Part shown: piece after piece, positions 40,809 to 46,787 of the stretch
Layout: every line of letters starts with the position of its first letter
How positions within the stretch are numbered: position 1 is the first letter of the stretch
Assembly (NCBI GenBank): GCA_902727895.1
Contig: CACVAP010000015.1
Coordinates: forward strand, 1 to 46,787
DNA length: 46,787 nucleotides
Reading direction: 5' to 3'
From: an uncultured Sulfurovum sp.
GTDB lineage: Bacteria; Campylobacterota; Campylobacteria; Campylobacterales; Sulfurovaceae
The notes under the pieces: generated by a model
Database searches by the model: none
Told to the model about the DNA's origin: nothing
The model's input: only the letters and a program-made list of their open reading frames with translations
Translations under genes and position numbers: made by a program

Positions 40809-41234
40809 ATGAAATTAACATCTGTAATGAAGCCTCATGAAGTTCAAAGAGATTGGATTTTAATTGATGCTGAGGGAAAAACATTCGGTCGTATTTTAAC
40901 AGAAGTAGCTACTTTTTTAAGAGGTAAACACAAACCTTCATTTACTCCAAATGTTGACTGTGGAGATTACGTTGTAATTATTAATGCTGAAAAAGCAAAA
41001 TTTACAGGTAACAAACTTCAAGCTAAAGAATACTTTACTCACTCAGGTTACTTTGGTTCTACTAAAAGTAAAAAACTTGGTGAAATGTTAGATGATAACA
41101 CTGAAAAACTTTATAGACTTGCTGTAAGAGGTATGCTTCCTAAGACTACTCTTGGTAGAGCAATGTTGAAAAAACTTAAAGTATATGTAGGTGCTGAGCA
41201 TCCTCATACTGCACAAATTAACAAGGACGCGTAA
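40809..41234 (+). CDS. rplM: 50S ribosomal protein L13
   Basis: A 141-residue ribosomal protein of normal length. It shows [63 protein letters not shown] and the C-terminal [43 protein letters not shown] precedes the ATG. It is the first gene of the conserved rplM-rpsI operon, 2 nt from rpsI. Confidence 0.97.
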
Positions 41235-41236
41235 TT

Positions 41237-41626
41237 ATGGCAACTATCTATGCAACAGGAAAAAGAAAAGCAGCAATCGCTAAAGTTTGGTTAACTCCAG
41301 GTAAAGGTGAGATGACTATTAATGGTAAAACATTAGATGAGTGGTTAGGTGGACATGAGACACTTAAAATGAAAGTTAGACTTCCTTTAGAAGCAACTAA
41401 ACAATTAGAATCTATGGATATTAAAGCAACTACACTTGGTGGTGGTTATTCAGCTCAAGCTGATGCTCTTAAACATGGTATTACAAAAGCACTTGTAGCT
41501 TACGAAGAGTCTTTCAGAACTATTCTTAAGCCTATGGGACTTATGACTCGTGACTCTAGAGTTGTTGAGCGTAAAAAGCCAGGTAAGAAAAAAGCGAGAA
41601 GATCTCCACAATTCTCAAAAAGATAG
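41237..41626 (+). CDS. rpsI: 30S ribosomal protein S9
   Basis: A 129-residue ribosomal protein. It shows [42 protein letters not shown] and the conserved basic C-terminus [24 protein letters not shown], ending in the KR that reaches the P-site. It follows rplM by 2 nt. A strong hairpin 20 nt downstream ends the operon. Confidence 0.97.
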
Positions 41627-41861: not shown

Positions 41862-41909
41862 AACTATTTAAACTAAATATATATAATATAATTTTAAGTT
41901 TAAATAGTT
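41862..41909. promoter_or_regulatory. 13-bp perfect inverted repeat around a -10-like box
   Basis: AACTATTTAAACT at 41862-41874 and AGTTTAAATAGTT at 41897-41909 are exact inverted copies separated by 22 nt that contain a TATAATAT box. This lies about 45 nt upstream of the riboswitch, so it may be the promoter of the surface-protein gene with a repressor site, or a hairpin. AT-rich composition makes chance pairing more likely. Confidence 0.35.
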
Positions 41910-41950
41910 TCTCCTCCGTTATTATCATATCATATAAATAAACTATTGAA

Positions 41951-42020
41951 AAAGCTAAACCCATTGTGAAGTGGGGACAGAAAGCAAAGGGTCTTTTTTT
42001 TAAGATAGCCTAGTTACCAA
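41951..42020 (+). promoter_or_regulatory. GEMM-type (c-di-GMP-I) riboswitch
   Basis: The aptamer folds as in GEMM-I RNAs. P2 is CCCATT (41960-41965) with AGTGGG (41970-41975) capped by a GTGA tetraloop. The joining strand GACAGAAAGC resembles GACGCAAAGCC. P3 is AGGGTCTT (41988-41995) with AAGAT and CCT (42002-42011), with the bulged AG of the tetraloop receptor. The closing P1 is GCTAA with TTACC. The joining strand and P1 differ at a few positions from the consensus, so the ligand (c-di-GMP or cGAMP) should be tested. It stands 75 nt before a giant adhesin-like gene, the classic target class. Confidence 0.75.
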
Positions 42021-42094
42021 TAAGTAATAGATTGTACTTGTTTTTCATGATATTTATTTTATGCGTGTACTTTAAATAGATAATAGGATGTTTC

Positions 42095-45000
42095 ATGAAA
42101 ATTAAGAGTTTTAGAGATGTAGGGGTGAATACGTCTAAAGGTTTTTCCTTAATGGAGATAGATAATAGTAAAAAAGGCTCTAATATAATTGAACACTTTT
42201 TACGCATGATGCTTGTACTAATGTTTATGGTTTTTATACCAGCACAGGTCTTAGCAATTGATACAGATAATGATAATGTTATTGATTCTCTTGACCTTGA
42301 TGATGATAATGATGGAATTCTAGATACAGTTGAATGTTCCGTTGCACCTGTACAAAGTGGAGCATGGACAATACCAAATACAACAGGCGATACTGCAAGT
42401 ACTGATCTAGGAAATGGTATCACTGTAGTTTGGGAAGTGACAAATGCAGGTTCAAGTATTTCGGAATTACCACTTAATACTGTGGGAGATGATGTAGCAT
42501 CAGAGCAATTTTGGTCAAATGGAAGTCTTGCAGGTGCAAACAGTCTGTCATATGAATATGACTTTGGCACGGTAGTAAAGATTTCTTTTATTGATACAGT
42601 TACAAGTAATCCAATTTCTGTATATAATCCAATAATGCATGTAGATAAATTAGGAGGAGAAGTTTCTGGAGACCCATTATCAGCAACCATGACACTCTTA
42701 GATGCAGGACTGACATGGACTAAATTAGCAGGAACACTTGATTTTAACACTACATCAACAACAGCTATTGATGCATCATTACCTTTAGGAGCAAATGGCA
42801 TCAACAATGGCTTTGAATCTAATTGGGGAATTGATGCTGGAACAGCTTCAGGGTCTTTAAGAATTGATGGGTTTGTATCAGAGTTTTCATTTAGTATGTC
42901 AAATGTTGGAAATGATGTGGGTGCATTAGCCGATGCAATCAAATTAGCATTTTCGGCAGCAATATGTAATGATGATGATAGTGACACTATTCCTAATAAT
43001 CTAGACTTAGACAGTGACAACGATGGTATTCCAGATAATGTAGAGGCACAAAAGACATTAGGATATATTGCTCCAAATGGTGTTGTAGATGCTAACGGTA
43101 CAGATACAGCGTATGTTGGTGGTTTGATACTAGAAGATACAGATGACGATAATATTTCAGATTATATTGATGCCGATTCAGATAATGATGGGATGAGTGA
43201 TGCAAGTGAAAGTGGTCTAGTACTTACAAATGTTGATGCAAATAGTGATGGTATTGATGATGGGGTAAATGCTTCTTATGCTGATGTTAATGGTGATGTA
43301 AATAATCCCTTAGTAAATTTAAAAGAGTTAGATGGTTCAACTGTAGATGTTGATTATCGATCTTTAAGAGATACCGATGGTGATGGTGTTATTGATGCTA
43401 TTGACCTTGATGATGATAACGATGGGATTTTGGATACGGATGAAGGTTATCTTTGTGAAGCGTTAACATTTGTGAAACCTACTTATGCCAATGTAACACA
43501 AGTAGCAGGTACAGGTACTAAAGATGATATGGATGTGAATGATATTTATGTTTGGTCAAATTCATTTCAGAGTGTTACTCAAAATTATGATTTGGTATTT
43601 CAACTAAAAAGTATGAGCCAAGTTGGAAAGGCTTATTTTAAGCAACCAGCTACAGTCACAGACTCAACTGGATTACAGTTAGATGATTTTATTGCGCTAA
43701 ATGACCCATATGTGTCTTTCAAAATTTGGGCAGTTCAAAGTAATTCTGCAACAGTTGCAAATCCCCAAGGTATTCCTGTAACAATAAAAAATGTTGATGC
43801 AATTATTAAAGATTTAGATTCTCAAAATGATGTTACACGAGACTACACTGACATAGGAGGTATATCTCAAGATGTTAGTACTTCTATGCAAGGTACAATA
43901 CTTTATGGAAGTGCATTGAGTAATGAAGGTTTTATGAATGGTGGAGGTTTAGGAAACTATGCTTATGCAAGGATGGCAGATGAAGCTGCTTTCCCTAATC
44001 ATAGTCAAAGTGATGCCGATGTAGATTATTGGATGACTGCACATTATGGTGAGTTTAAGGAAGAAGAATTTATATTTGGTGTAACTAGACCAGATGGAGC
44101 TAATAATTCCAATAGAGAAGGTAAGTTTGAATTTTCTTCATCAATGGCTTGTTTCTCAATAGATACAGATAGTGATGGAATCCCTGACCACTTAGACTTA
44201 GACAGTGATAATGACGGAATTCCTGATAATGTTGAAGCACAAACAACAAATGGATATATAGTATCAGCAGCAGATAGGAATGCAATGTATATTATAAATA
44301 ATGGAGTAAACTCTGCTTACTTGGGTGGACTTAGTTCCGTAGACACAGATGAAGACAATGTAACAGATATGTTAGATAGTGATTCTGATAATGATGGGGA
44401 GACAGATTGTGCAGAAAATAATGATGTCATTGCGTTTTGTCCAGTAAACAATGCTAATGTAGGAATTAATGGTTTAGTTGATTGGGCAGAGTTGGTAGAT
44501 GACTATAATGATACCAATGGAAAAGCTTATGAAGGAAATGTATTTACGTTAGATGATACAGATAATGATACAGCTTCTAATGGCTCAGATGCGAATGCGA
44601 CAACTAAAAATTTAGATTATAGAGATAATACAACACCTTCTAACATTCCACCAGTTGCTACGGATGTAACCCGTACGATTGATACAGGAAGTACAACAAT
44701 CATTGATTTACTTTCTTTAGTGAGTGATAGTGATGTAGGAGATACTTTAAGCATTACAAGAATTAATGGTGTAGTACTTACAGGGAGTGAACAAAATGTT
44801 ACTGTTCCTAATGGTGTGGTACAAGTAGCAATTGACGGTAATGTGACCTTTGTGCCAAATAGTGGTTATATAGGAGCTAGTACATTTGCGTATGAGGCAA
44901 CCGATGGAACTGAAACTGTAAGTGCTAATGTAAATATTGTAGTTACTCCTACACCATTTACATGTAATGATACTTTTTACTTTTCAAATAGAGATAGTAA

Positions 45001-46681
45001 TGATGATGTTATCTTTCAACGTATTAATCGTGATGTGATTCCGTATCCAAATGTAGCTATTGGTACACCATCTACGATTAAATATAATGCAATGGGTTAT
45101 AACGTACAAGATAACTTTATCTATGCAGTTGCGATGAATGAGTTAATTCAGATTGATAAAAATGGAAATGTTAGTAACCTTGGCGTTATTGGAGGAGGAT
45201 ATCCTAACAAACAAATTTATGCAGGTGAGTTTGATAGAAATGGAACGTATTATGTTTATGATGATGGTACAAACTTATTACATGGAATTGATGTTGCTAA
45301 TAAAACACAAGTTTCAGTTGTTACTTTAAGTGAAACCATAACCTTTTGGGATATGGCGATTGATACAACGGGAAATTATTTTTATGCAATGTCTGCTGAA
45401 GCAAATGCACCATGGACTAATTTAGGTCTTATTAAAATAGAAATAGCAACAGGTACGGTGACCCATATTGGTAGTGAAACACATGATGATAAAGGTGCTA
45501 CAGGTTCTACTTATTTAGCCTTTTCAGATGCAGATGGAAAAATCTATATGCAAGATGCTACGAATGGAATTTTTGAAGTTGATATAACAACAGGAACTTT
45601 AACCTTGGTATCTTCATCTAGTGACTTAGGTACTTTTAATGATGGTACGGTTTGTCCTAATAGTAAGATTACGCTCATTCCTGATACTGATGGGGATAAT
45701 GTTCGTGATGATATTGACCTTGATGATGATAATGATGGAGTTTTGGATACATTAGAAATGAATCTTGATGCAACAACATTTAGTTTTGAGACAGATACGG
45801 AAGGTTGGGAATCAGATAATGATAATGGAAATTCTCCACTTCCTTCTGTATCCAATTCAATAACAACAGTAGCACAAGCACCGAGTAGTTGTTCTATTTT
45901 ACCAGAGCTTCTTAATGCTGCTCCAAGTGGGAATTTTATAACCATGACAGATGATAGTATAGGATTGATTTATTTAGAAAAATCACTAGCTACTCCACTT
46001 GATTTAAGTTCTAAAGTATCTAATGGGCAATTGAGTTTCTATTGGGCAAATGGAAAGTATGATGACCTTAGCAGTTCACAAGGTTCAACAAGTTTACAAA
46101 TTGTTTTAACAAATAGTGCTGGAACTGTTGTTAGTGGAGAAATTAATGTAAGTAATGAACATGATGGTCAATGGAGATTAAAAACAATTAATCTTGATGA
46201 TGCCAGTTGGTCTTCAGATTTAAGTAGATTAACAACAGTCTTAAGTACTTTAGCTAAGATTGAAATACAAGTAGAGACTATTTCAGCTTTTGATTATAAT
46301 GTAGGTGCAGGATATGACTGTACTAATTCAGAATATTTTGCAATTGATGAGATTTCTTTTGCTGACTTCCCAGAAGACACAGATAACGATGGCATTCCAA
46401 ATCACTTAGACTTAGACAGTGATAACGACGGAATCCCAGACAACGTAGAAGCACAAAAAACAGCAGCATACATAGCCCCAAGTGGAGCTGTGGATGGAAA
46501 CGGTACTTATAGTGCTATTTATGGTTTAACAGGAATTACACCAGTAAATACTGATGGAAATGATACAGCTGATTATATTGATACTGATTCAGATAATGAT
46601 GGAATTTTTGATATTGTAGAGTCAGGTCAAGGGCTTAACGCAGATGTTAATGGTTCAACTACTCGTATAATACAAATGTAG
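42095..46681 (+). CDS. Giant TSP3-repeat surface protein, adhesin-like
   Basis: A 1528-residue exported protein. The N-terminus is long (about 54 residues, ending in VFIPAQVLA), as in extended signal peptides. At least nine calcium-binding thrombospondin type-3 blocks (DxDxDxx) begin near residues 56, 292, 348, 426, 690, 750, 1197, 1428 and about 1490, e.g. [12 protein letters not shown] and [16 protein letters not shown]. Between them lie beta-rich modules, a cadherin-like domain at about 853-954 ([20 protein letters not shown]), and a DUF6923-like beta-propeller module at about 955-1189. No membrane anchor or sorting domain is visible before the stop; see finding. A GEMM riboswitch controls the leader. 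AGGA precedes the ATG. Confidence 0.75.
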
Positions 46682-46787
46682 CAATTAGCTATCATACAAA
46701 AGAGAGTTTTGTTAAGAGTAATATATCGGTTTCAACGTCAAAGCAAGAGCTTTAGAAATAAAGAGATTAGCTTGAGGGTCAGTCAGA

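Follow-up and report, generated by a model that had tools for sequence, protein, structure and literature searches.

The closest described relatives of the element analyzed here are the Vc2 and Vc1 riboswitches of Vibrio cholerae (RF01051), the latter of which precedes gbpA, encoding a secreted colonization factor, and exerts positive control in response to c-di-GMP (PMC4744006). Our element shares with both the fold, the GNRA tetraloop, and the residues G20, A47, and C92 (Vc2 numbering, used throughout, follows PMC3764141), whereas it carries C-G at pair 21-46 and U-A at pair 22-45, and it precedes a gene for a giant calcium-repeat protein in a member of the Campylobacterota. The collagen-adhesion genes cap and cbpA of Bacillus thuringiensis are reported likewise to place a surface adhesin under a c-di-GMP riboswitch (PMC4933901, PMC7423583); this host is Gram-positive and the adhesin is a different one, and we liken the systems by arrangement. 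Riboswitch control of adhesins is thus already known elsewhere. The pilM riboswitch of Geobacter metallireducens, a cGAMP ON switch in which terminator and aptamer are mutually exclusive (PMC9262584), has a related aptamer and the same transcriptional ON arrangement that we propose below, but it differs in its ligand and in that its terminator sequesters the ligand-pairing C75.

Among known proteins, the CshA-type and TSP3-type cohesion proteins (TIGR04225; NF047638, MtsC) share CshA-type and TSP3-like repeats and a C-terminal membrane segment with the proteins found in relatives of our genome. However, these matches fall below the model cut-offs, and the proteins described here are much larger. 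The titles and abstracts examined contained no report of a riboswitch controlling such a giant gene in Campylobacterota.

The window (the whole stretch of DNA analyzed, 46,787 nucleotides, from an uncultured Sulfurovum sp.) contains the following features around the element:

40809..41626, plus strand: upstream neighbors rplM (L13) and rpsI (S9), by NCBIfam TIGR01066 and NF001099
41647..41675, plus strand: hairpin of 12 pairs that resembles a terminator, following rpsI and dividing the two units, read by eye
41892..41929, plus strand: promoter-like block, TTTTAAGTTTA at 41892-41902 and TATTATCATA at 41920-41929, from conservation; putative function
41945..42022, plus strand: c-di-GMP-I riboswitch aptamer (P1, P2, P3), by cmscan and covariation in 37 homologues
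42019..42046, plus strand: candidate intrinsic terminator, AAUAAGUA-(AUAGAUUG)-UACUUGUU and U-tract, overlapping the P1 3' strand; hairpin of -4.7 kcal/mol
42085..42088, plus strand: Shine-Dalgarno-like AGGA, from the sequence
42095..46661, plus strand: 5' part of a gene for a giant calcium-repeat (TSP3-like), Ig-like, and cadherin-like surface-type protein, from ORF, Pfam, and motifs
46662..46787, no strand assigned: multi-copy repeat at the contig edge, supplying the final residues and the stop at 46681, from matches to other contig ends

With a probability of about 0.72, we interpret this arrangement as a class I c-di-GMP riboswitch in the leader of a giant adhesin-type gene, acting as an ON switch by antitermination. 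It is an ordinary c-di-GMP-I riboswitch whose target is well supported and biologically sensible, and it provides a direct link from c-di-GMP to a giant protein of surface type in an uncultured member of the Campylobacterota. The original prediction had described a well-formed GEMM aptamer at 41951, 75 nt before the gene; the aptamer is real, but it starts at 41945 and lies 72 nt from the ATG at 42095.

Judged by its sequence, the aptamer is a genuine, canonical class I c-di-GMP riboswitch, with c-di-GMP as the predicted ligand. The top cmscan label in the window is RF03167 (c-di-GMP-I-GGC; 63.3 bits, E = 9.8e-13, cut-off 59), and comparison with RF01051 (c-di-GMP-I), the Infernal check proposed along with the original prediction, gives 61.2 bits, above the gathering score of 35. 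This is the sole match to either family across the 2.96-Mb draft genome. P2 is capped by GUGA (41966-41969), a GNRA tetraloop. The Rfam variant families reportedly originate from Weinberg et al. 2017. The present case shows that a variant label need not imply an altered pocket. In sister copies the winning model switches, with RF03167 and RF01051 scoring 63.0 and 64.8 bits in G032 (record JALVXD010000276.1) and 66.1 and 60.5 bits in G031 (record JAHZJZ010000134.1), so the RF03167 label is not diagnostic. The consensus read from the RF03167 model has G at position 47, from which we infer the meaning of "GGC" in its name, and the window instead has A (41981), as in ordinary c-di-GMP-I aptamers.

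Covariation was assessed in 37 whole aptamers of the order, taken from Rfam matches without a pattern filter. In this alignment 90.3% of cells are paired, compared with 79.2% in shuffles, with two-sided changes at 18 pairs and none of 500 shuffles as high; on each of five covariation measures the alignment outscores every one of the 500 shuffles and every slid control, the slid values being much lower. P1 is more weakly supported (59.5% of cells paired in the 37 aptamers). When the window leader is folded to minimum energy, the native aptamer does not appear, which we count against our interpretation.

The leader also contains a promoter-like block of the form TTTTAAGTTTA-N-TAATATCATA-N-TAGAAATAAAATATTG, which in an alignment of ~110 nt of upstream sequence is present in five of the six copies in the genus and in a partial seventh copy (L055), while it is not clear in L046. 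Its TTTAAGTTTA part is also found upstream of the giant gene in a sister genome that lacks the aptamer (G021). This conservation supports, but does not prove, a transcription start upstream of the aptamer. On the other side of the aptamer, a hairpin with a U-tract begins within 6 nt of C93 in four of the six genus copies (dinucleotide shuffles predict 0.43, and none of 500 reached the observed count), and outside the genus one adjoins P1 in 8 of 65 aptamers (1.5 expected), counts that are supportive rather than a blind test because the hairpin criteria were set after viewing the sequences. Stem sequences differ between the genus copies; L049 has no convincing terminator hairpin, and the one in L047 needs a loop above the size limit of the scan, both points against antitermination. 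As the AAUAAGUA stem overlaps the P1 3' strand, P1 and the hairpin are mutually exclusive, and an ON switch is predicted.

In this model, transcription would start just 5' of the aptamer. At high c-di-GMP, the ligand would bind around A47, with G20 on one side and C92 on the other, and would stabilize P1 (ACUAUUG with CAAUAAGU), so that the P1 3' strand would be withheld from the next hairpin (AAUAAGUA/UACUUGUU and U-tract); with the hairpin blocked, read-through would allow the putative adhesin to be made. At low c-di-GMP, the hairpin would form and transcription would stop. Taken together, the promoter-like block, the U-tract hairpin over P1, and the nature of the targets, which are of adhesin type, point to antitermination with ON polarity.

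Alternatively, the same riboswitch could regulate translation or have OFF polarity, in which case the hairpin would be no working terminator and the ligand would alter access to the start region. The window stem is weak and A-U rich with one G-C pair, a point we count against antitermination; it was not listed by a standard promoter and terminator scan, which was uninformative here and required at least three G-C pairs in a terminator stem, and the low frequency of adjoining hairpins outside the genus indicates that expression platforms vary. However, a hairpin and U-tract adjoining P1 recurs within the genus with differing stems, and no anti-Shine-Dalgarno strand is evident by eye, so we consider a translational or OFF mechanism rather unlikely.

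Returning to the antitermination switch, comparative evidence from sister genomes bears out the original prediction of a riboswitch before a giant calcium-repeat surface protein. The aptamer is present in 6 of 34 genomes of the genus, in exactly one copy each, and five of these copies precede giant genes rich in DxDxD[GN]. The predicted proteins measure 869 aa in G014 (open), 1528 aa in the window (to the stop in the repeat), 1749 aa in G013 (open), 2204 aa in G032 (interrupted by a run of N), and 4658 aa in one stretch in G009, the last becoming a complete protein of 7092 aa once two adjacent stretches are joined. The full-length G009 protein has a probable membrane segment at its C-terminus, with basic residues after it. 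The Pfam domains in the genus targets are Big_9, cadherin-like, and CshA_repeat, which point to a putative adhesive function. The sixth copy (G031) precedes a 352-aa secreted-type protein with no Pfam match and counts against our interpretation. The five giant-gene copies occupy three neighborhoods: beside rplM-rpsI (window and G032), beside a 390-aa protein (G013 and G014) that by eye is NagZ-like, and beside a 462-aa protein (G009) that by eye is NhaA-like.

The order rplM-rpsI followed by a giant gene is common to the window, G032, and G021. In the window, a RecB-like helicase gene (NF010485, 37978-40701), an ordinary neighbor, is directly upstream of rplM-rpsI. In G021, an orthologous gene encoding 2957 aa (L110:661-9531, on G021:C95) follows rplM-rpsI; its leader contains no aptamer sequence, and model searches of the whole G021 genome found none either. 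The N-terminus of the G021 protein differs from that of G032. We find it most interesting that a single locus carries the aptamer in some genomes and lacks it in another, which provides a natural setting for comparing one adhesin gene under RNA control with its counterpart free of it. We tentatively suggest, as a somewhat doubtful possibility, that the promoter, the riboswitch, and the giant adhesin gene constitute a unit that has been relocated among loci of the genus, and that at one orthologous locus (G021 versus G032 and the window) a gain or loss of the aptamer took place in the interval from promoter to start codon. If this suggestion is correct, RNA-based c-di-GMP control of one and the same adhesin is in place in some sister species and missing in others.

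The ORF in the window (42095-46681) encodes 1528 aa from an ATG at 42095 and contains 16 DxDxD[GN] motifs as well as the Pfam domains DUF6923, Big_9, and Cadherin_5. The best match to Pfam TSP_3 (PF02412) is 18.5 bits, below the cut-off of 25, which we count against our interpretation; given this score and the 16 motifs, we use "TSP3-like" descriptively and assign the protein to no family by it. The stop at 46681 is inside a multi-copy repeat at the contig edge, so the ORF is only a 5' fragment. Of the 4.6-kb TSP3 gene originally described, the ORF and its motifs stand, but neither its completeness nor a TSP_3 match above cut-off does. The repeat matches C12:9616-9742 (99%) and C1:10858-10982 (87%), both contig ends in unrelated contexts, and another ORF in the repeat also terminates with RIIQM before its stop. 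The repeat, which starts with CTCGTATAATACAAATGTAG, ends or nearly ends three contigs, provides ORF stops in two, and is possibly the end of a mobile element; an Rfam scan of the repeat-bearing ends of C12 and C1 found no RNA family.

At the edge of contig C45 is a 1975-aa open fragment 81% identical to the window protein over 165 aa. The final 300 residues of this fragment have matches in the gene under riboswitch control in G009 and in a stretch on the G032 contig that bears the riboswitch gene, and the gene order in G032, G021, G030, G033, G007, and C45 fits C45 as the other end of the window gene. By these sequence matches, the missing end of the gene is probably on C45, across an unbridged gap. 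A related-locus search with the giant protein in a set of genome contigs gave no match. The window's genome also encodes further large proteins rich in repeats (L108:8370-11519 and G000:C92), which have no c-di-GMP-I aptamer.

A broken gene preceded by a decaying aptamer, possibly functionless in this genome, would likewise end inside a multi-copy repeat, and one sister genome does dispense with the aptamer. However, conservation of the aptamer core is complete, C45 carries a matching 3' half, and assembly alone would give a contig break at a repeat, so a relic is unlikely.

Three segments of the aptamer bear on its predicted ligand:

41954..41956, plus strand: G20 (ligand contact) with C21 and U22 (partners of 46 and 45), Vc2 numbering from PMC3764141
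41978..41981, plus strand: joining strand C44, A45, G46, A47, with A47 a ligand contact, from sequence and alignment
42017..42025, plus strand: C92 (ligand contact) and the P1 3' strand C93-AAUAAGU, whose partner is ACUAUUG at 41942-41948 with one bulge, from the sequence

The original prediction held that the joining strand departs from consensus at or near ligand contacts. The change is present (GACAG for GACGC), but it falls at positions 45 and 46 and is half of two compensated pairs, with partners 22 and 21 changed as well (21-46 from G-C to C-G; 22-45 from C-G to U-A). Pair 21-46 of Vc2 is C46-G21. The adjacent Vc2 pair is G45-C22 (PMC3764141). Among the 37 aligned aptamers, pair 22-45 is C-G in 29 and U-A in 7, and pair 21-46 is C-G in 35 and G-C in one; the single unpaired cell in each pair comes from the misaligned row of L037. 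Among 41 Rfam-found aptamers of the order, the combinations at 21-46/22-45 are C-G/C-G (32), C-G/U-A (7), and G-C/C-G (2), with none broken; the extraction pattern permitted mismatches at these pairs, none of which were seen, while it fixed G20 and limited the letters at other sites, so the intact contacts among the 41 are partly by construction. Measured against the Vc2 sequence, the window has the same spacing, G14-(5 nt)-G20-N21-N22-AAAC, and the extra base proposed near the P1/AAACC boundary is absent.

The contacts G20 (41954), A47 (41981), and C92 (42017) are identical to those of Vc2 (PMC3764141, PMC4744006). Diguanylate cyclases, a search for which had also been proposed, are present: the genome encodes six GGDEF domains, all with the canonical aspartate and none with the serine that replaces it in the Hypr signature (PMC6456294), along with seven EAL domains. 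The pocket change G20A of cGAMP aptamers (GEMM-Ib) is absent, as position 41954, the one position tested for it, is G. A shift in specificity, as originally suggested, is not supported, given the intact contacts, the compensated joining-strand change, and the lack of Hypr-type enzymes among the six. Sensing of 3',3'-cGAMP or another dinucleotide is very improbable: cGAMP aptamers of Geobacter are close variants of the same fold (PMC8835794) and the top Rfam label is a variant family, but the ligand contacts are unchanged, the variable bases form compensated pairs, the GGDEF-type enzymes are all canonical, and which of RF03167 and RF01051 scores higher varies among the sister copies.

The element was also expected to be notable for its phylum, which it is not, since c-di-GMP-I matches occur in 76 of 399 genomes of the order, upstream of diverse genes. 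Scanning by pattern for the U-A/C-G version gave 38 stretches, mostly from records of Sulfurovum or other Epsilonproteobacteria; the others include some from Geobacter, Nitrospirae, and further groups, and a few that look like chance matches. In Sulfurovum and related records, aptamers also precede proteins that by eye are LysM-like and PAS-like (L053, L057, L064, L067, L080; L058, L066, L068, L077, L086). Elsewhere in the order, aptamers occur as tandem pairs in L016 and L024 and as a divergent pair in L013.
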